Part shown: piece by piece, positions 6,735 through 36,562 of the stretch
How positions within the stretch are numbered: the first letter of the stretch is position 1
Layout: each line of letters opens with the position of its first letter
Source of the DNA: an uncultured Aureispira sp.
Lineage (GTDB): Bacteria > Bacteroidota > Bacteroidia > Chitinophagales > Saprospiraceae
Assembly (NCBI GenBank): GCA_937942475.1
Contig: CALDEP010000130.1
Coordinates: 1-36,721, forward strand
Direction of reading: 5' to 3'
DNA: 36,721 nucleotides
Made by a program: the position numbers and the translations under genes
The notes under the pieces: generated by a model
The model's database searches: none
Told to the model about the DNA's origin: nothing
Seen by the model: only the letters and a program-made list of their open reading frames with translations

Positions 6735-7586
6735 TTAGGAATTGAAACGACTGAAGGCGATTTCGTTTTTTAAATGAAGCTCCTGCCAAAACGAGTCTAA
6801 AACTTCGCTAGGAAAGCTATCTAGCTTATTTTGAATGGCTGTAGGATTGGAGTACTCTATTAAAGAGTTCAAAGGCTGTAGTGTTTCTAAATCAGCACTG
6901 CAAGTGACTCGTAAATAACTTCCTTGAGTTTGTTTGCCAACTTTTTTTAAGGTTTTTTCATCTATTTCAACAGCCATTTGACCAAAAACAAAGGTATTGT
7001 CAGGTCTTTTGGCAACAGGACTAAGCGCTGTTCCATTGCAACCAATACCAAAGGCGTGAATTTGAATGTGTTGCTGATTTGCAATTTGGGCAGCAAAATC
7101 AGGGCTATATTCCCCAGAGTTATTCACCCCATCAGTCAATATCAGAATATCTTTTTTTAGACTATTGCTTTTTGATAACTCATAAAGCCCAGCCATTATT
7201 CCTGAACCGATGGCTGTTCCACCTTCCATTTTATTGGCTTCAATAAGATGCACTTGTTTCATTAACTCACTAGAATCTTTAGTTAAAGGGCAAAGCACGA
7301 AGGCTTCCCCTTCAAATAAAACAATAGCCATTTGCTGTTGAGGTTCTCTTTCTGCAATCATCTTTTTCAGCATACTTTTAACCGCTTCTAATCGATTGGG
7401 GACAAAATCTTGAGCGAGCATAGAAGTAGAAACATCTAATACAAAAACAACATCTTCTGAAGGTTTTAAAACTTCTTTAGGAACGGGCAGTATTTCTTGC
7501 GTAACGGCTTTGTTTTCTGATTTACAAGCAATTGTTAATACAGAAGTAACAACTAATAATGTAATAAATAGGAGGGCTGTTTTCAT
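6735..7586 (-). CDS. VWA-domain lipoprotein (BatB-like)
   Basis: A von Willebrand factor A domain protein of 283 residues from the ATG chosen here. That start gives a clean lipoprotein signal peptide with Cys21 in LTIAC; an upstream in-frame ATG at 7640 would add 18 basic residues and would lie inside the palindromic repeat, so it is less likely. The metal-ion-dependent adhesion site is complete: DVSTS at about 51-55, a Thr in GGTAIGSG and an Asp in LTDGVNNSG. The fold resembles BatA/BatB proteins of Bacteroidota, but no bat operon partners (MoxR ATPase, BatC/D/E) are near. It probably binds another envelope protein through Mg2+; its role is not known. Confidence 0.82.
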   Translation of the reverse strand: MKTALLFITLLVVTSVLTIACKSENKAVTQEILPVPKEVLKPSEDVVFVLDVSTSMLAQDFVPNRLEAVKSMLKKMIAEREPQQQMAIVLFEGEAFVLCPLTKDSSELMKQVHLIEANKMEGGTAIGSGIMAGLYELSKSNSLKKDILILTDGVNNSGEYSPDFAAQIANQQHIQIHAFGIGCNGTALSPVAKRPDNTFVFGQMAVEIDEKTLKKVGKQTQGSYLRVTCSADLETLQPLNSLIEYSNPTAIQNKLDSFPSEVLDSFWQELHLKNEIAFSRFNS

Positions 7587-7627
7587 GAGTTTTCTTTTAT
7601 AAAGAGCTTTTACTTTTCGTTCTTTGA

Positions 7628-7840
7628 CAACTCTTCTCACGCAGTAAATCGTGTGATAATACTTAAAAGTAGGCTTCGAAGTTAACGATTTTAGATCGCT
7701 GTGTTCTTAGATATTAGATTTTAGACTAAAAAATTGATTAACAGTTGTTTAGTCTAAAATCTAGTATCTAAAATCTAAAAGTTAGTTAAGAGCTACCTGT
7801 AATTAAAAACTCCACACGATTTACTGCGTGAGAAGAGTTG
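7628..7840. repeat. Nested palindromic element, 213 bp
   Basis: Outer arms of 28 bp (7628-7655 and 7813-7840, core CACGCAGTAAATCGTGTG) are perfect complements. Inside them a second pair of 24-bp arms (7707-7730 and 7748-7771, core TTAGATTTTAGACTAAA) has one mismatch and a 17-nt loop. The outer arm sequence recurs at 9479-9562 and 17100-17184; the inner core recurs at 36401-36493. It lies between two - strand genes, in the leader of the VWA gene. Confidence 0.85.
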
Positions 7841-7850
7841 CAAAAGAACC

Positions 7851-9371
7851 TTACTTTTTAAGAGGTAAACTTAATATGAACGTATTCTTGAAGCTTTCTT
7901 GCGAAAACTCTGTTGAGATGGTATTGTTAGTAACCATAATATAGTCCAAATCGATTCTATTTATGGCATGACCTGCTTGATATTCCGCATTGAATAGATC
8001 AACAAGGCGATACTGTCCTGAGACATCGTCTACGATACAAAGCGTCAGTATTTCGACCTTTTTATCTTTGTTTTTGGTATAACTATATAGCGTTTCTTCT
8101 GTTAAATGTTTGCTAGGTGGAATGGATAAACTGCCTTTGTCAATAACTTTTTTTATGCTGAAAAAATAGTGTTGATTATCAATTAATTGATACTTGAAAT
8201 TCGTGCTGTAATCAGGATCATTTTGAGGTAAGTTGGCCGTCCATTTTATATTTCTGTCCTTATCAAAACGTATGAGCAACCTGTTTTTGAAATAATCGAC
8301 AATAGCATTATAATAACCACCACCATTGGGGTATAAATTGGCATCATATTTCCGAACGGCTTTTTTATAAAACTCTTGCATAATCACCAACATACCACCA
8401 TCTTCACATGGACGAACACTAAATAGCAGCAAGTCTCTAAAATGATTTTTATTGGCAATGGAAGCATAGACATTCTTAGGCAAATCTATAACCGTAATGT
8501 TCTCAGGATCATTAAGGTCTTGAATGAAGAGTTGTTGACCTTTGTTGTAGGTACCCACTAAATTAACTTGGTCTTTAGTATTAAGGTACGTGTACACTTT
8601 GCCCCATTTTGCGTGTTCTTTAGGGCTTTTTTCTTCCACTACTTCCTTGTTTAGTTTTAATTTAAGAAATTTGTGCGCACCTGTTTCATCGTGTTTGGTG
8701 ATAATATAAGGCGTGGCATAGTTGGTCACAAAAATAAATTTAGTGCTTTCATTCATACGGTCATAGGGGAATTTAACCGTTCCTTGCTCAAAAATTTCAA
8801 AATTATCTTGATAAATAAGGCATTTTACCTTTCTTGAAGACGTCTGATTATTGTCATTCTCCAAATAATAATAAACCATCAAAAAGGAACTGTCCTCTGA
8901 GAAGCAATATTTATATTGATCTAGCTGTCTAACTTTCATTCGATCTAATTCTACCTCTTCGCTGATGTCTCCTGTTTCAAAGTCAATTAATCTATAATGG
9001 AGGCTATTAAAAACCCTTGCATCATCCTTTCGGTTGTTTCTTTTTGTGTACAAGATGGCATAATTCTCTCCAAACTTAGAAACGCTTAACACGTTAATAT
9101 CTCTTGAAGCAATTACAGGATCAGGAGGAGTCTTGTTCATTTCATTGCTCTCTGTATCAAAGCGGTAAATTTCAATTTCCCTACGAACAAGTTTTACGGT
9201 ATAAATATACCTATCATCCGTAAAAACATATTTATCTCCATAAACACGATCATAGATGTTGGAAGCCTTAATTTTATTGATGTTGATTAAAGAATCTGCC
9301 GTAGCCTTTTGACAATGGGCCTTGGAATGGTGAATGACTTGTAATAAAAGAACGAACAAAAATAGTTTCAT
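7851..9371 (-). CDS. Secreted protein of unknown function
   Basis: A 506-residue protein with a signal peptide (KLFLFVLLLQVIHH, predicted cut after AHC or soon after). I recognise no family. The mature part is rich in beta-strand-like stretches with alternating aromatic and polar residues and short motifs such as YRLIDFETGD, LIRFDKDRNIKW and LCIVDDVSG that look like blades of an irregular beta-propeller, but no strict repeat is visible. It would act in the periplasm or at the cell surface. The palindromic element follows its stop codon by 11 bp, and a -7 promoter box is found upstream. The gene calls as real because of length, signal peptide and promoter. Confidence 0.75.
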   Translation of the reverse strand: MKLFLFVLLLQVIHHSKAHCQKATADSLININKIKASNIYDRVYGDKYVFTDDRYIYTVKLVRREIEIYRFDTESNEMNKTPPDPVIASRDINVLSVSKFGENYAILYTKRNNRKDDARVFNSLHYRLIDFETGDISEEVELDRMKVRQLDQYKYCFSEDSSFLMVYYYLENDNNQTSSRKVKCLIYQDNFEIFEQGTVKFPYDRMNESTKFIFVTNYATPYIITKHDETGAHKFLKLKLNKEVVEEKSPKEHAKWGKVYTYLNTKDQVNLVGTYNKGQQLFIQDLNDPENITVIDLPKNVYASIANKNHFRDLLLFSVRPCEDGGMLVIMQEFYKKAVRKYDANLYPNGGGYYNAIVDYFKNRLLIRFDKDRNIKWTANLPQNDPDYSTNFKYQLIDNQHYFFSIKKVIDKGSLSIPPSKHLTEETLYSYTKNKDKKVEILTLCIVDDVSGQYRLVDLFNAEYQAGHAINRIDLDYIMVTNNTISTEFSQESFKNTFILSLPLKK

Positions 9372-9478: not shown

Positions 9479-9562
9479 ATGGTTCTTTTGCAAACTTCTC
9501 ACGCAGTAAATTGTGTGGAGTTTAAAATATAGGCTATCTTTTAACAGTTATGAATTGGGATA
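9479..9562 (+). repeat. Interspersed repeat, 84-bp copy 1
   Basis: Nearly identical to 17100-17184, with about four to five mismatches. It contains the core CACGCAGTAAATTGTGTGG, the same core that forms the outer arms of the palindrome at 7628-7840, and ends with ACAGTTATGAATTGGGATAT. Confidence 0.85.
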
Positions 9563-9587
9563 TAAGTTTTAAGTAGAAAGTCGTAAG

Positions 9588-9770
9588 TACACTGTAACAA
9601 AAGTTATAAATAATAAAATACAAATGCTCTTGTAGTGTAAGCCTGCTTCGTGCCTTGCAGAGACAGCCCTAGTTTAAAGACTGGTTGTCTCTGCGAGGTA
9701 CGAAGCAGGCCTGTCCAGTATTTACTTCAAAAATTACTCTATTCTATTAAAAATTAATGTTACACTGTAA
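9588..9770. repeat. MITE-like hairpin element with terminal TACACTGTAA
   Basis: A 25-bp stem (9641-9665 with 9686-9710, GCCTGCTTCGTGCC at one end, two mismatches that can be G-U pairs) closes a 20-nt loop. The identical 10-mer TACACTGTAA lies at both ends (9589-9598 and 9761-9770). Because that 10-mer is nearly palindromic it can be read as terminal inverted repeats or as a target duplication. The stem is much more GC-rich than its surroundings. Confidence 0.7.
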
Positions 9771-17099: not shown

Positions 17100-17184
17100 A
17101 TGGTTCTTTTGCAAACTTCTCACGCAGTAAATCGTGTGGAGTTTAAAACATAAGCTAACTTTTAACAGTTATGAATTGGGATAT
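17100..17184 (+). repeat. Interspersed repeat, copy 2
   Basis: About 94 percent identical to 9479-9562 over its full length and in the same orientation. It includes CACGCAGTAAATCGTGTGG, identical to the outer arms of the palindrome at 7628-7840. It starts 44 bp after the stop codon of the PilJ-repeat gene. Confidence 0.85.
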
Positions 17185-17389
17185 CTTCGCATACACAAGC
17201 CTCTTCAGAATTTTTTTGAGGGGGTTTTTATCGTGATAATCACCTTTGACAGATCTTAGTGAGTTTGTCAACGAACTTAAAAAATAAAATAAGCATAGTT
17301 TAAGTGGTTTTTTAAAAGTTTATATTTGATTTAATGCTTTATTTATTTGTAAAACAGGGTTTATTAAATTTTTAAATAGATAATGTGTC
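17185..17389. other. Intergenic stretch with no clear gene
   Basis: AT-rich spacer. A weak hairpin with CCTCTTC and GAGGGGG before a T run near 17202-17229 could end transcription on the + strand, but the stem is poor. Confidence 0.3.
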
Positions 17390-17487: not shown

Positions 17488-18423
17488 ATGACAATCAATG
17501 CTGTTAAATCCCTACTAGTTTTAGTTTTATTTTCTTCTTTCTTTTTTATTGGATGTAAAGAAGATGACGTGACAACTCCTACTGGAGAGCCCTTGCCTTA
17601 TGATAATATTAGCGAGCTTTTTGAAACGCAAGCACCGCAAACACAAAGCTTTACTATTGCAGCAAATACTACTCAAACCGTTACGGGGACAGATGGGACT
17701 AAAATCACCTTCTATGCCAATAGTTTTGTAGATGCACAAGGAAATACCGTCACAGGGCAAGTTAATTTTGAATTAAAAGAAATTTTTGCAAAAGGTGACA
17801 TGATTTGGAGCGAGCGCATGACGGTTGCTTCTAATGGACAGTTGTTAGAATCTGGAGGAGAGTTTTCATTAAAAGCAACTTCGGCAGGACAGGAAGTATT
17901 TTTGAATCAAGACTTCTTTATGGAAGTGCCAATTAGTAATGCGACTTCTAATCCTTCTGCAATGGAATTGTTTACGTCTACAGAATCTGATTCTACTTGG
18001 ACACCAGCCGATTCTACTTGGGTTGGGATCGATTCGTCGAATACGAATTATCAAGTTAATTTTGATAGTTTGACTTGGATCAACTGCGATTACTTTTATG
18101 GTGCTAATAATACAACAACAACATTTAGTGCAGAACCAGTACTTACGGCAGGAGTGAATTTGACAGATGTATCAGCCTATGTTGTTTTTACTAACATCAA
18201 TTCTGTTGCTTCTTTATATTACAATTCAGCAGCAGGAACATTCCAATGCTCTTATAATTTGCCAATTGGAGAGGCTGTAACCGTTGTTATCGTAGGAATG
18301 GATGCTACACAGCTCTATTTAGGAACCTTGAATACGACGATATCTGCGCTCACAAGTCCGCTACAAGTTCCTATGAATCCTGTGACACAGGCACAGTTGC
18401 AAACGACTATTAATAGTTTATAG
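17488..18423 (+). CDS. Surface lipoprotein of unknown function
   Basis: A 311-residue lipoprotein. The signal peptide ends with FFIGC (Cys23), and the next residues KEDD match the lysine-plus-acid export signal that sends Bacteroidota lipoproteins to the outer face of the outer membrane. Residues about 55-150 form a beta-rich domain (TGTDGTKITFYANSFVD, TGQVNFELKEI, SGGEFSLKATSAGQEV) of a type I have seen in many Bacteroidota surface proteins, resembling a carboxypeptidase-regulatory or ZU5-like sandwich. The rest is Thr/Ser/Asn-rich beta structure with no known motif. It is flanked by repeats on both sides and appears to be a single-gene unit. Confidence 0.75.
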   Translation: MTINAVKSLLVLVLFSSFFFIGCKEDDVTTPTGEPLPYDNISELFETQAPQTQSFTIAANTTQTVTGTDGTKITFYANSFVDAQGNTVTGQVNFELKEIFAKGDMIWSERMTVASNGQLLESGGEFSLKATSAGQEVFLNQDFFMEVPISNATSNPSAMELFTSTESDSTWTPADSTWVGIDSSNTNYQVNFDSLTWINCDYFYGANNTTTTFSAEPVLTAGVNLTDVSAYVVFTNINSVASLYYNSAAGTFQCSYNLPIGEAVTVVIVGMDATQLYLGTLNTTISALTSPLQVPMNPVTQAQLQTTINSL

Positions 18424-18442: not shown

Positions 18443-18617
18443 TATAATACTTCGTGGGATTTTTAGTTTTTTTAGCAAAAAACATAAAAACCATTTCATA
18501 TTAGTTTGATTATCAAAAATTTAGTCATTTTGACAAAGCAAGGCTATTTTATTGATAATCAAACTAATATAATTTAGCTGCGCTGAGCCTTCGGGTTCTC
18601 CACGAAGTAATGTTATA
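18443..18617. repeat. Nested inverted repeat, 175 bp
   Basis: Outer arms TACTTCGTGG (18443-18459) and CCACGAAGTA (18599-18617) enclose a perfect 19-bp inner pair (ATATTAGTTTGATTATCAA at 18498-18516 with its complement at 18552-18570). The right part (18573-18617) matches the complement of 34470-34514 at 38 of 45 positions, so the two are members of one family. Confidence 0.8.
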
Positions 18618-29500: not shown

Positions 29501-32500
29501 TTATATCAGCTCTTTCTTGCGTCTATTCATCGAAACGCCACCAACAAGAACCAAGGCAGCGATAAGCCCACCAATCATCCAAGGCATTGTTTTATTTTTC
29601 TTCTTGATAGAAACAGGTCGTGTATTTCCTATCTGAATGAAAGAGGACCAAAAAGCGGGATGAGCCAAAACGTCTTTGGCTGATTTCATGTACTGAATTT
29701 TAGCCTGACGAAGTGCAGCATCTTTTTTCATTCCATTCGCTAAATTAGCATATAGAATGTTCATGATTTCTGAAGTGGCGTAGTCATTTACTTGCCAAAG
29801 CGAAACAATAAGAGAAGATGCTCCTGCATACATAAATGCACGAGATAGGGAGGCAATTCCATTGCCTTTTTCAAACTTTCCAAAGCCCGTTTCACAAGAA
29901 GAAAGCACAACAAGGTTAGCTTTGAGTTGAATTTTAGAAATTTCATAAGCTTGCCAGAAGTTGGATTCGAGGCTGTCATGGTCTTCCGTAAAAGCGAGGG
30001 AAGAAAGCATGGGTTTTTTATTGTCTAAAACACCGTGGGTAGCAAAGTGTAAAATTGCAAAATTAGCTGCTTTTTCTTTGACCGTTTTTTCAGAGGCAAG
30101 TGCATCAAAAGCGAAAAAGCCTTGATATTTCTTCTCTAAGGTTTCGACTTCTTTACGAGCAGAAGGAAGTGCATGTAATTTTTTGCGCAACCACTGGTCA
30201 ACAGGAAGCCTGATTTTATTTAGTACCGACGAATCCAATTCAGTTTCATAGTTCGCTGCCATGGCTAGGATTTGCCCATTGTTTTTAGGCGAAGGCGCTT
30301 CCGTATTCTCTTTCCAAAGGGCAGCTGAATAGTTGTAGGAGATGTTGTAATCATTCACCAAATAATGCAGAAGGTGATAATCGGTAAGATTTTGTGGAGC
30401 TTGCTCCATTAAAAAAGTTTCAAAGGGTAAGTGTCCTAATTCTCCATCCGTAACGAAGATTAGATTTTTGATGTTTTTCTTATCGTTTAAAACAGGTGCA
30501 AGGAGGTTCTTATAAAACCAATGTGCCTGAAAGGTATATTCTCTATAAGACCTTTTTTCATCGTCTATAATCATCTTATAATTGCTCAAGGCTTGATGAA
30601 GGCTTTTGATCTTGGTTTTTAGTATTTCCTTAGGAACAAAGGTCTTTTTCCACTGAACTTGTTTGTTATCGACATAGAAGATATGGATAATAGAATCGCT
30701 AATAACATATTCCAACAATGCAGTGCTATCTTCTAAAAGTGCCTGTATGTTTTCGGTCTTAATCGTAACTTGATGCTGTTTGAGTTTATAATATTTAGGA
30801 TAGTCTTTTTTTAATAATTGGGTAAAATCATCAATATCCTGATTGATGTGGATTAATTCATTCCGCAAACTGTCTTTCTCTAGTTTGGAGCGTTTTTCTG
30901 TTAATTTGGCTTGTAATTGATGTTGCTTTTTTAACATCTTTTTGTCCTTAGAAATCAAAGCATCTGGCAAAAGCCCTAATTTGTAGGCTTCCTCAGATTT
31001 AGTTGCTTGCAACAGCAAGACCGATTTATTTTCATCGGCTAATTGAAAGGCTTTTGAACTGTGTTCTTTCGTATTTAAGATGGTCAAGTTTTTTTCTAAC
31101 CAAGTAGTACTAGATTTTAATATTCTAAGTTTGTCTTTCTCATTAGATATTTGGTTTCGTAGTTTATGAAGCAATTGGACTACTAGATTGGCTACTATTT
31201 TTTGTTTTTCTTGACGGTTTTTACTTGCCTTTTTTTTTGATAATAGCTTATAAGTATGATCTAGAGAGACGATCATTAGTTCGAGATGAAGGTTAGAAGG
31301 GTAGGTGGCATGTAATAAGCTATCCGCCCAATTATTATGAATATGAAGGCTAATATTTAGACCAGAATTAATCTGTAAAGCTTGTTCAAGCAGTTCTCTA
31401 GCTTGCGCATAATTGCCCATTTTTAGGTGCAAAAAAGCTAGATGATTAATGGTGCTAGCAAAATAAGGATGCAGCGAACCCAAGGATTTTTCTCTAATGT
31501 TTTTGGCTTGAATAAAAAGAGGGAGCGCTAATTTAAAATTTCCCATTTCTTGATGTAATCGAGCTAGATGATTGACGGAATTAGCAAAATTAGGATGAAA
31601 AGGACCTAATAATTTTTCTCTAATATTTTTGGCTTGGATCGCAAGAGGTAGCGCTAATTCAAAATTTCCCATATCTTGATGTATTCCAGCTAGATTATCG
31701 AGGGCTAGCGCAAAGTCAGGATGCATTTGCCCAGAGGCTTTTTCCCAAATGTCTTTGGCTTGAATGAAAAGCGGGAGTGCTAATTCAAAGTTTTCCATTT
31801 CTTTGTGTAAATAGGCTAGATTATTAATGGAGACAGCGAAGTTGGGATGGAAAGGGCCTAATAGTTTTTTTCTAATGTTTTTGGCTTGAAGATAAAGCGG
31901 GAGTGCTAGCTCAAAATCTCCCATGTCATGGTGTATTCCAGCTAAATTGTTGAGAGAAGTGGCGAAGTCAGGGTGTAGGAGTCCCAAGGATTTTTCTCTG
32001 ATATTTTTGGCTTGAATAAACAGCGGAAGGGCTGATTCAAAGTCTCCTAATTCTTTATGCAATGATGCTAAATTGTTGAGAGAGATCGCAAAGTTCGGGT
32101 GGAAAGGGCCTAAGGTTTCTTTGTCAATCCTAATCACTAGTGTATAGAGTGGGAGTGCTTTGTCAAACTGTCCCGTTTGGTAATAAAAAACAGCAAGGTT
32201 GTTCGTGTATTCGGAGAAGATGGAGTCCCTCTCACCAAATTCTGCTTTTGCTTTGGTTTGCCCAGCCAACATTAAAGGAATGCATTTGCTAAAGTTGCCC
32301 TTTTGATAGTAGATCATCATCATACTATCAATTTGTGAATAGGAAAGGGGCATAAATTTCCTATAATCACTTTGAGCAAAAGCTCCAAAGGGAAGGAAGA
32401 AAAACAGAAGGTAAAGGGAATAATAACGTTTATGAGTGGGAAGGCTTTTTTGTATATAAATTAGGCTAATTAACATTAATAGAATTAACAAAAATTGCAT
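29501..32500 (-). CDS. TPR-CHAT caspase-fold protein with six 42-residue repeats
   Basis: A 999-residue protein. The most likely signal peptide is the second hydrophobic stretch (about 28-42, ending GAFAQ); the hydrophobic first 17 residues suggest that the real start may be internal. Residues about 90-380 are TPRs of the kinesin light chain type, including six copies in exact 42-residue register, each with HPxFA (His at 134, 176, 218, 260, 302 and 344). A helical linker leads to a CHAT domain with His822 (HFATHG) and Cys869 (LSSCETG). A closing HPAFWSSF, one membrane helix (about 973-992) and NRRKK end the protein. Exactly 130 residues follow the catalytic Cys, as in the other TPR-CHAT protein here, so the two are paralogues in that half. 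Confidence 0.88.
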   Translation of the reverse strand: MQFLLILLMLISLIYIQKSLPTHKRYYSLYLLFFFLPFGAFAQSDYRKFMPLSYSQIDSMMMIYYQKGNFSKCIPLMLAGQTKAKAEFGERDSIFSEYTNNLAVFYYQTGQFDKALPLYTLVIRIDKETLGPFHPNFAISLNNLASLHKELGDFESALPLFIQAKNIREKSLGLLHPDFATSLNNLAGIHHDMGDFELALPLYLQAKNIRKKLLGPFHPNFAVSINNLAYLHKEMENFELALPLFIQAKDIWEKASGQMHPDFALALDNLAGIHQDMGNFELALPLAIQAKNIREKLLGPFHPNFANSVNHLARLHQEMGNFKLALPLFIQAKNIREKSLGSLHPYFASTINHLAFLHLKMGNYAQARELLEQALQINSGLNISLHIHNNWADSLLHATYPSNLHLELMIVSLDHTYKLLSKKKASKNRQEKQKIVANLVVQLLHKLRNQISNEKDKLRILKSSTTWLEKNLTILNTKEHSSKAFQLADENKSVLLLQATKSEEAYKLGLLPDALISKDKKMLKKQHQLQAKLTEKRSKLEKDSLRNELIHINQDIDDFTQLLKKDYPKYYKLKQHQVTIKTENIQALLEDSTALLEYVISDSIIHIFYVDNKQVQWKKTFVPKEILKTKIKSLHQALSNYKMIIDDEKRSYREYTFQAHWFYKNLLAPVLNDKKNIKNLIFVTDGELGHLPFETFLMEQAPQNLTDYHLLHYLVNDYNISYNYSAALWKENTEAPSPKNNGQILAMAANYETELDSSVLNKIRLPVDQWLRKKLHALPSARKEVETLEKKYQGFFAFDALASEKTVKEKAANFAILHFATHGVLDNKKPMLSSLAFTEDHDSLESNFWQAYEISKIQLKANLVVLSSCETGFGKFEKGNGIASLSRAFMYAGASSLIVSLWQVNDYATSEIMNILYANLANGMKKDAALRQAKIQYMKSAKDVLAHPAFWSSFIQIGNTRPVSIKKKNKTMPWMIGGLIAALVLVGGVSMNRRKKELI

Positions 32501-32618
32501 AAAAAATGTGTGAATTAGTTATTTGTATTTATAAGTAACATCTTTCACAAAAAACTAATGATTAGTTCAATGCAAAATAGAGGAATCCATCATTAGTTTA
32601 GTGACAGCAAACAAATTA

Positions 32619-32741
32619 GCTGATCACTAGTTCAGTATGTAACAAAACGGATTAGTTAATCACTAATTTAGTATGTAACAAAACGGATTAGTTAATCACT
32701 AGTTTAGTATGTAACAAAAAGGATTAGTTAATCACTAATCC
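32619..32741. repeat. 36-bp tandem repeat at the 3' end of cmk
   Basis: Three full units of 36 bp (32619-32654, 32655-32690, 32691-32726) plus 15 bp of a fourth, which is coding. Units differ by two to four bases. Each holds the small palindrome ATTAGTTAATCACTAAT at a unit junction. On the - strand each unit begins with TAA, and the first TAA is the cmk stop codon. A degenerate older copy can be traced to about 32587. Confidence 0.9.
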
Positions 32742-34426: not shown

Positions 34427-34548
34427 TACTCTACACAACTGTATAGAGTAGTATTTTGAGACGTACATTTATATCATTACTCGGTTGAAAACCCAAAGGC
34501 TCAGCGTAGCTAAATCAACGGAGTATTATTATATGAACTCAAAATACT
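34427..34548. repeat. Nested inverted repeat between STAS-like paralogues
   Basis: A hairpin TACTCTA/TATAGAGTA starts the element (34427-34450). The 11-bp arms AGTATTTTGAG (34450-34460) and CTCAAAATACT (34538-34548) then enclose imperfect inner arms (34471-34488 with 34515-34534). 34470-34514 matches the complement of 18573-18617 at 38 of 45 bases. CAGCGTAGCTAA at 34502-34513 also occurs at 36440-36451. Confidence 0.7.
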
Positions 34549-36339: not shown

Positions 36340-36562
36340 TTTACTCTACACGACGGTTTTTGTAAAAATTAAAATGGGGCTGGTTTTTGACTATTTTTAA
36401 ATCGCTTCGCTTTTAGATTTTAGACTCCAACTCGAAGAATCAGCGTAGCTAATTAAGCTGTGATTGGAGTCTAAGATCTAAAAGCGAAGCGATCTAAGAT
36501 CTAATATCTGTTTAAAAAAAAGCCCATTCTGCCAAACTTTAAAAACCGTCGTGTAGAGTAAA
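36340..36562. repeat. Nested palindromic element, 223 bp
   Basis: Perfect outer arms of 22 bp (TTTACTCTACACGACGG at 36340 on, complement at 36541-36562) enclose inner arms of 30 bp with one mismatch (36401-36430 and 36464-36493, core TTTTAGATTTTAGACTCC). The centre holds a small AGCT palindrome. The layout, and the core TTAGATTTTAGACT, are shared with the element at 7628-7840. Confidence 0.85.

Follow-up and report, generated by a model that had tools for sequence, protein, structure and literature searches.

A probable ISL3-type MITE in Aureispira whose terminal inverted repeats seem to carry a smaller dispersed repeat

What kind of sequence is the nested palindrome that lies between a gene for a VWA-domain protein and a neighboring open reading frame in an uncultured Aureispira sp.? 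The window analyzed here is the whole of contig C130 (36,721 bp), from a draft genome of 5.97 Mb in 494 contigs that is 88.5% complete. A sequence-only reading had placed the palindrome at 7628-7840 and regarded it as two opposed copies of a mobile repeat around another hairpin. The nesting itself was confirmed: the outer arms (7619-7655 and 7813-7849) are 37 nt long and 95% complementary, with a perfect 28 within, and they enclose a second pair of arms, 30 nt long and 90% complementary, of which the left (7707-7736, plus strand) is made of TTAGATTTTAGA words and the right lies at 7742-7771 (minus strand). The limits had to be moved outward, the true unit being a single 233-bp insertion at 7618-7850 (plus strand, with the A end on the left and the B end on the right) between the two copies of a perfect 8-bp target duplication TTACTTTT (7610-7617 and 7851-7858). 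The A end begins with the terminal inverted repeat core CGTTCTTTGACAA (7618-7630), followed by a 17-bp block CTCTTCTCACGCAGTAA (7631-7647) that is preceded by AA and itself closes with AA; plain ends, GACAAATCGTG, have no such block. The B end mirrors this on the minus strand, with the block at 7821-7837 and the core GGTTCTTTTGCAA at 7838-7850. Together the outer arms form the terminal inverted repeats of a single element and are not two opposed solo copies, and the idea of nesting holds at a finer scale because a second, smaller repeat sits opposed inside both ends. The predicted RNA fold of 7618-7850 (minus strand) reached -100.5 kcal/mol, whereas 200 shuffled sequences averaged -39.3 (sd 4.1; z = -15) and none of them was as good. 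Elsewhere in the window, a palindrome of TTTTAGATTTTAGACTC words at 36395-36510 has a GCGTAGC unit near its center and shares TAGATTTTAGA words with the inner palindrome of the element.

Searches with the outer arm revealed a family of elements. The arm 18-mer had 4 matches in the window with up to 3 mismatches, against 0.02 expected, and the genome-wide search that had been proposed for it returned 32 exact copies with one free base in the window's own genome (reversed control 0), confirming copies beyond the window. With one mismatch allowed, an arm 20-mer was found 42 times in the own genome, 5 times in G001, 3 times in G003 and once each in G004 and G008, and in none of the remaining 35 of the 40 genomes searched; the single matches of G004 and G008 lie at corresponding places outside any element end. 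A scan of public genome contigs, in which records from the window's own genome were possibly omitted, gave four stretches, all from the uncultured Aureispira MAG HLG_WM_MAG_10. The end word GTTCTTTGACAA has 151 copies in the own draft (reversed control 3) and 95 in the congener G003 (control 1). The supposition of a non-autonomous mobile family was borne out by many copies, both orientations and target duplications. The arm copies noted earlier at 9479 and 17100 do exist, not as bare single arms but as parts of other family members. One of these, at 17102-17277 (176 bp, minus strand), has the block in its B end on the left side, a diverged A end and a duplication ATAAAAAT / TAAAAAAT agreeing at 6 of 8 positions; the other, on the minus strand at 9481-9563, consists of a B end with the block and the adjoining part, and its right end was not found. 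A palindromic stretch at 9590-9770, ACACTGTAAC...GTTACACTGTAAT around GCCTGCTTCGTGCC...GGTACGAAGCAGGC, is seemingly inserted in the member that starts at 9481.

For a fair count, elements were paired by their ends alone, at most 420 bp apart and with the flanks ignored; an earlier round, with a 3-kb search, had let the flank enter pairing. In the own genome, 42 pairs resulted, in which the 8-bp repeats were perfect in 26, had one mismatch in 5, two in 6 and four or more in 5, and 10 ends had no partner. The 65 pairs of G003, a set built on all 95 end words, comprised 34 with perfect repeats, 14 with one mismatch, 7 with two and 10 with three or more, and 16 ends had no partner. The own sample is non-random, since 40 of its 60 loci were chosen for the arm and the remaining 20 were drawn from those of the 151 end-word copies that were listed, and the own pairs without a target duplication (L028, L195, L208, L020 and the 122-bp L025 pair) were retained among the 42. 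When the right flanks were shuffled among elements, perfect 8-bp repeats fell to 1.6% (G003) and 2.0% (own), and the duplication length is specific to 8, with agreement at 7 or 9 bp in at most 2 of 65 (G003) and 1 of 42 (own) pairs. The perfect duplications contain 7-9% G+C. Pair size ranges from 38 to 414 bp, mostly 150-310, a range that in part reflects the limit of 420 bp on pairing; with 3 kb allowed, only two longer pairs were added in G003, both doubtful. The smallest pair (L199, at about 512-550), with 38 bp, barely extends beyond its two ends and still has a perfect 8-bp duplication TTAATAAT. A second MITE type of the own genome ends in GGTTCTTTGACAATTTTTGCC (L199, L020) or GGTTCTTTGACAACTTATGCC (L193), and its interior palindrome words (TATAAGTAGAAAGTCGTAAGT etc.) are common to the first type; interiors look exchangeable between the two families. 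Terminal inverted repeats, short size, high copy number and target-site duplication, the marks of a MITE, were all found.

The family end core GGTTCTTTGACAA, frequent at MITE ends, is identical to both ends of an ISL3-transposase element, L215, from the same bacterial family, Saprospiraceae; the ends, the duplications, the family size and this identity with one ISL3 element are established for the outer element. L215 spans 1267 bp, with GGTTCTTTGACAATTTTTGCAAA at both ends and between them a 352-aa frame whose PF01610 match covers positions 1-239 of 240; a search for its target duplication found none. The A and B ends of the window copy agree with the core at 12 and 11 of 13 bases, respectively. 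In a scan of 30 ISL3 loci, L215 alone had the core at both of its ends, and L228 has it at one end with one change; the ISL3 elements L221/L239 (one element) and L237 have perfect 8-bp duplications and different end sequences. PF01610 was detected in 23 of 199 genomes of a family-wide sample and in 0 of 9 Aureispira genomes, the 88.5% complete draft of the window among them, so no autonomous partner was found in any of the nine. No candidate transposase was seen by eye among the reading frames of ten loci whose ends were unpaired or paired in part, and a transposase inside long G003 pairs (1762 and 2285 bp) was dropped, the far ends having 4 and 3 mismatches. Of the features of an ISL3-type MITE, ends matching an ISL3 element and an 8-bp duplication are present, and an autonomous partner in the genome was not found. 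We hold the element to be of ISL3 type by its ends, without a known living partner; the transposase encoded elsewhere, which the sequence-only reading had also envisaged, is inferred, with none found in the genus. On the whole that reading was partly supported.

The outer element is a MITE of an already known sort, comparable with one in Cardinium, which belongs to the Bacteroidota, and with one in Microcystis. MITECca01 of Cardinium, as described in the accessible part of its report, is likewise a MITE, of about 240 bp, but unlike in Aureispira its parent, of IS982 type, is present in its genome (PMC9769881). Microcystis aeruginosa PCC 7806 has a 187-bp ISL3-type MITE with 8-nt direct repeats, and the Aureispira element is like it in a length of about 190 bp, a stem-loop, 8-nt direct repeats and a mainly intergenic position (PMC11448079). 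According to the accessible part of that report, the Microcystis MITE is present in about 30 copies and its ends, GGCTCTTCG, match ISL3-family elements (PMC11448079). The two differ in end sequence and phylum; the ISL3 parent is in the Microcystis genome and was not found in Aureispira, and a tiny repeat at the MITE ends, as present in Aureispira, is not mentioned in that part of the report (PMC11448079).

The window palindrome is longer than the plain 199-bp form because each terminal repeat has the 17-bp block after its 13th base. A plain element starts ...TTTGACAA and continues with ATCGTG, whereas in the window element AA and ATCG are separated by the block at each end (199 + 34 = 233), and a size ladder of 199, 214-216 and 232-233 bp corresponds to the block in neither, one or both ends. 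The 42 own pairs, a census biased toward block-bearing elements, comprised 3 with the block in both ends, 10 with it in the A end only (one of them the 38-bp element, holding just part of the block), 10 with it in the B end only and 19 without it. Two further cases with both blocks, L021 and the L062/L066 site, are absent from the end-only pairing because their ends are mutated. L062 and L066 (G000 C33 and C286) share an identical insertion site at two contig ends with slightly different element sequences, and are either overlapping contig ends or a strain mixture. A tree was built from 28 of the 42 interiors, all of the first type and 185-280 bp long. On it, block state required 7 changes for the A end and 6 for the B end, against means of 8.4 and 7.2 for shuffled labellings, 21% and 20% of which needed no more changes. 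Because block states are scattered on this tree, inheritance of the block from one master copy was not seen and was rejected; the block was probably gained and lost repeatedly, or ends were exchanged. In the loci examined, the exact own-type block (CTCTT...) occurs only within MITE ends, and only its 12-base 3′ word is dispersed; seven script-flagged copies outside MITE ends proved by eye to be diverged ends. In G001, the element L300 carries an insert resembling the block at the corresponding base of a second end type, where GACAA is followed by TTTTTGCC.

The 3′ part of the block, CTCACGNAGTAA, belongs to a group of very small dispersed repeats, roughly 15-24 bp long. This 12-base core was found 74 times in the own genome, 44 in G003, 126 in G008, 125 in G004 and 57 in G001, and in four other congeners it had 0 copies; reversed controls gave 0-3 in the five repeat-bearing genomes (0-1 in own, G004 and G008) and 1-5 in the four others. 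A second word, GTAGCAGCGNAGCTAA, gave 87, 53, 250, 236 and 120 copies in the same order and 0 in the four others (controls 0-2), so that both words split the Aureispira genomes into five with and four without exact copies. In G004 and G008 the core is independent of the MITE, since the end word GTTCTTTGACAA is absent from the 600 kb and 592 kb searched, respectively; a longer form of the end word had just one 2-mismatch match in each. Alignment of G008 with G004 in three collinear runs (553 kb, 98.9% identity) revealed that kin units of the block are exact presence/absence differences between these congeners. There were 25 indels of at least 8 bp, 17 of them of 15-60 bp and 6 of exactly 22 bp, and 8 of the 9 indels of 20-26 bp carry CTCACGNAGTAA or GTAGCAGCGNAGCTAA; the indels are unpolarised, and some could be deletions. 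A 2-bp direct repeat borders 8 of the 17 indels of 15-60 bp, the others having repeats of 0-17 bp. One 20-bp unit, CCCGTAGGCTCACGAAGTAA, is a clean polymorphism between G004 and G008 at a non-MITE site, and the MITE ends of G003 contain a form of it, differing at N, at the very base where the window copy has its block. In the window itself, a tiny-repeat unit (AACCCGAAGGCTCAGCGCAGCTAA adjoining CACGAAGTA in reverse) lies at 18575-18609, past the end of ORF 17488-18423, and at 34480-34530 a short palindrome, GTTGAAAA...ATCAACGGAG, has CCCAAAGGCTCAGCGTAGCTAA in its loop.

The variation within these units has a distinct pattern. The unit CCACGNAGTAGCAGCGNAGCTAA was compared across 52 copies, chosen for the inner 8-mer GTAGCAGC (which fixes eight positions) and for similarity at positions other than N. 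Only at the two N does the commonest base fall below 60%, the next most variable position agreeing in 44 of 52; the copies came from loci not selected for that word, with orthologues in two genomes counted twice. Each free N is the middle of C-GNA-G, a GNA mini-hairpin loop. The GNA mini-hairpin of DNA is very stable and, in the accessible part of the source, is described with at least two G-C pairs (PMC4686876); GCGNAGC agrees with this description, and ACGNAGT contains a single G-C pair. Of the 17 indels of 15-60 bp, 14 include a GNA word (ACGNAGT or GCGNAGC on either strand, four flanking bases counted), as do 1.1% of random 36-mers. The other unit shows less freedom at N, with A in 16 of 23 copies after CGCTCACG. 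The pattern favors recognition as single-stranded DNA. Folding of six tiny-repeat stretches as single-stranded DNA gave energies better than shuffles for the MITE-end stretch only (z -3.3; others -0.4 to 0.9), so the suggested hairpin is drawn from the variation pattern and not from predicted energy. Small dispersed repeats are recognized by a length of about 20 bp, dispersal and presence/absence at orthologous sites, all of which was seen for the kin units in G004 and G008; the exact own block was seen inside MITE ends only. Those of cyanobacteria reportedly sit within other repeats (Elhai et al. 2008). The Aureispira repeats differ from them in sequence and phylum, and the GNA-loop pattern and the 2-bp repeat are described here from Aureispira data. 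The cyanobacterial repeats are given as about 20 bp and possibly mobile in an article cited in the accessible part of PMC2884548. Among the matches listed in the literature search, which had most subscription journals outside its coverage, nothing concerned these Aureispira repeats.

At the locus itself, the element has on one side the stop codon of ORF 7851-9371 (506 aa, minus strand, no Pfam match at E 0.001), a TAA that doubles as 7851-7853 of the duplicated target, and on the other the ATG at 7586, taken as the start of the VWA gene (6735-7586, minus strand; PF00092, E 9.5e-20, on ORF 6735-7640). Minus the element and one target copy, 23 bases would separate this stop codon from this ATG; the longer VWA ORF, from GTG at 7640, would start inside the element. 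The B-end block and the AGTTTTTAAT after it form a terminator-like hairpin at 7812-7831 (minus strand; a consensus match only), which reads on from ORF 7851-9371 and is the one such hairpin in 7400-8100 (shuffle mean 0.2, sd 0.5). Lying just after the upstream stop codon, this predicted hairpin could uncouple the VWA gene from ORF 7851-9371, and any effect of the block at this locus is likely local. Tandem repeats of 126 bp lie inside ORF 29501-32500 (31408-32211), and others of 36 bp just upstream of it (32609-32739).

Other origins of the element and its block have to be weighed. The block may be an ancient portion of the terminal repeat that small deletions remove, and it may resemble the dispersed word through chance or conversion. 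Such a history fits the restriction of the exact block to MITE ends, and counts made by eye also speak for it: AAC-TCGTG, which is what a deletion between two TC would leave, was seen at 7 of 16 clear block-free ends of single-block elements (four diverged or other-type ends excluded) against 1 of the 28 ends of 14 block-free elements (five pairs of other or doubtful type excluded). However, at the other 27 ends of the 14 block-free elements AAAT follows GAC or GC, which is a clean empty site, block states are scattered on the interior tree, and kin units are polymorphic outside MITEs; we regard loss of an old block as rather unlikely, and insertion of a tiny repeat into the MITE ends as the preferred course. 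For the MITE as a whole, an IS6/IS26-type transposase would suit the 8-bp duplications, and the B end GGTTCTTTTGCAAA presumably resembles IS6 ends. Yet in the IS6/IS26 set with 14-bp conserved ends given in the accessible part of PMC6807381, GG and G at base 7 are found in all but one IS, and base 7 here is T. PF13610 (IS6) was detected in 0 of 9 Aureispira genomes, though the same holds for PF01610, and the A-type core of the family is the end of an ISL3 element; by the absence of PF13610 and the base-7 rule, IS6/IS26 was rejected as partner type and is improbable.

A REPIN, two inverted REP palindromes moved by RAYT, a Y1 tyrosine transposase, would also be an intergenic hairpin with inverted short palindromes in many copies, and one tiny-repeat word does start with GTAG. 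REP/REPIN are short hairpin repeats too, some of them GTAG-tagged in the accessible parts of their descriptions (PMC3116915, PMC3733652), but no GTAG-tagged stem of at least 5 bp was seen in the Aureispira units, and the GTAG word lies inside a tiny repeat, away from the element ends. With 8-bp target duplications and end cores common to a DDE-type (ISL3) element, we find a REPIN very improbable. The sequence-only reading had also considered a long RNA in the leader of the VWA gene, a suggestion drawn from position only. The fold is indeed very stable, and the VWA start follows directly downstream of the element. A conserved leader RNA or regulatory structure is opposed by family members at dozens of other places, by the lack of a match at the element at the Rfam gathering score (only tRNA was matched in the window) and by the lack of a close counterpart of the VWA gene among eight congeners (at best about 40% identity), which together make such a structure hardly credible.

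We therefore favor, with a probability of about 0.8, an ISL3-kind MITE with an 8-bp AT-rich target duplication, whose terminal repeats were lengthened by 17-bp blocks. A non-autonomous DNA transposon of ISL3 kind would have been inserted between two close genes, duplicating an 8-bp AT-rich target, and would have been moved by an ISL3 transposase that is undetected in the genus today. Both ends seem to have been invaded by a smaller repeat of 17 bases, itself mobile-looking. The block may have arrived as a tiny repeat with an AA duplication, and may then have come and gone many times, or have been copied from arm to arm or between elements. As a tentative extension, Aureispira might host a class of mobile DNAs just 15-24 bp or so in length, which move via single-stranded DNA folded into GNA-triloop mini-hairpins, are recognized by an undiscovered enzyme and make a 2-bp AA/TA duplication; the ends of ISL3-type transposons would be a preferred target, so that ends grow by nested hairpin insertion. 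How such small units are moved has, to our knowledge, been a question ever since small dispersed repeats were described in cyanobacteria. What is unusual in Aureispira is this second layer, tiny repeats with clean presence/absence between near-identical genomes and at one exact base of MITE ends. The free base at the tip of the GNA loop hints at single-stranded DNA as the recognized form, and the Aureispira genomes, with exact copies of the two words in five and none in the other four, offer a direct route by which to look for the responsible gene.
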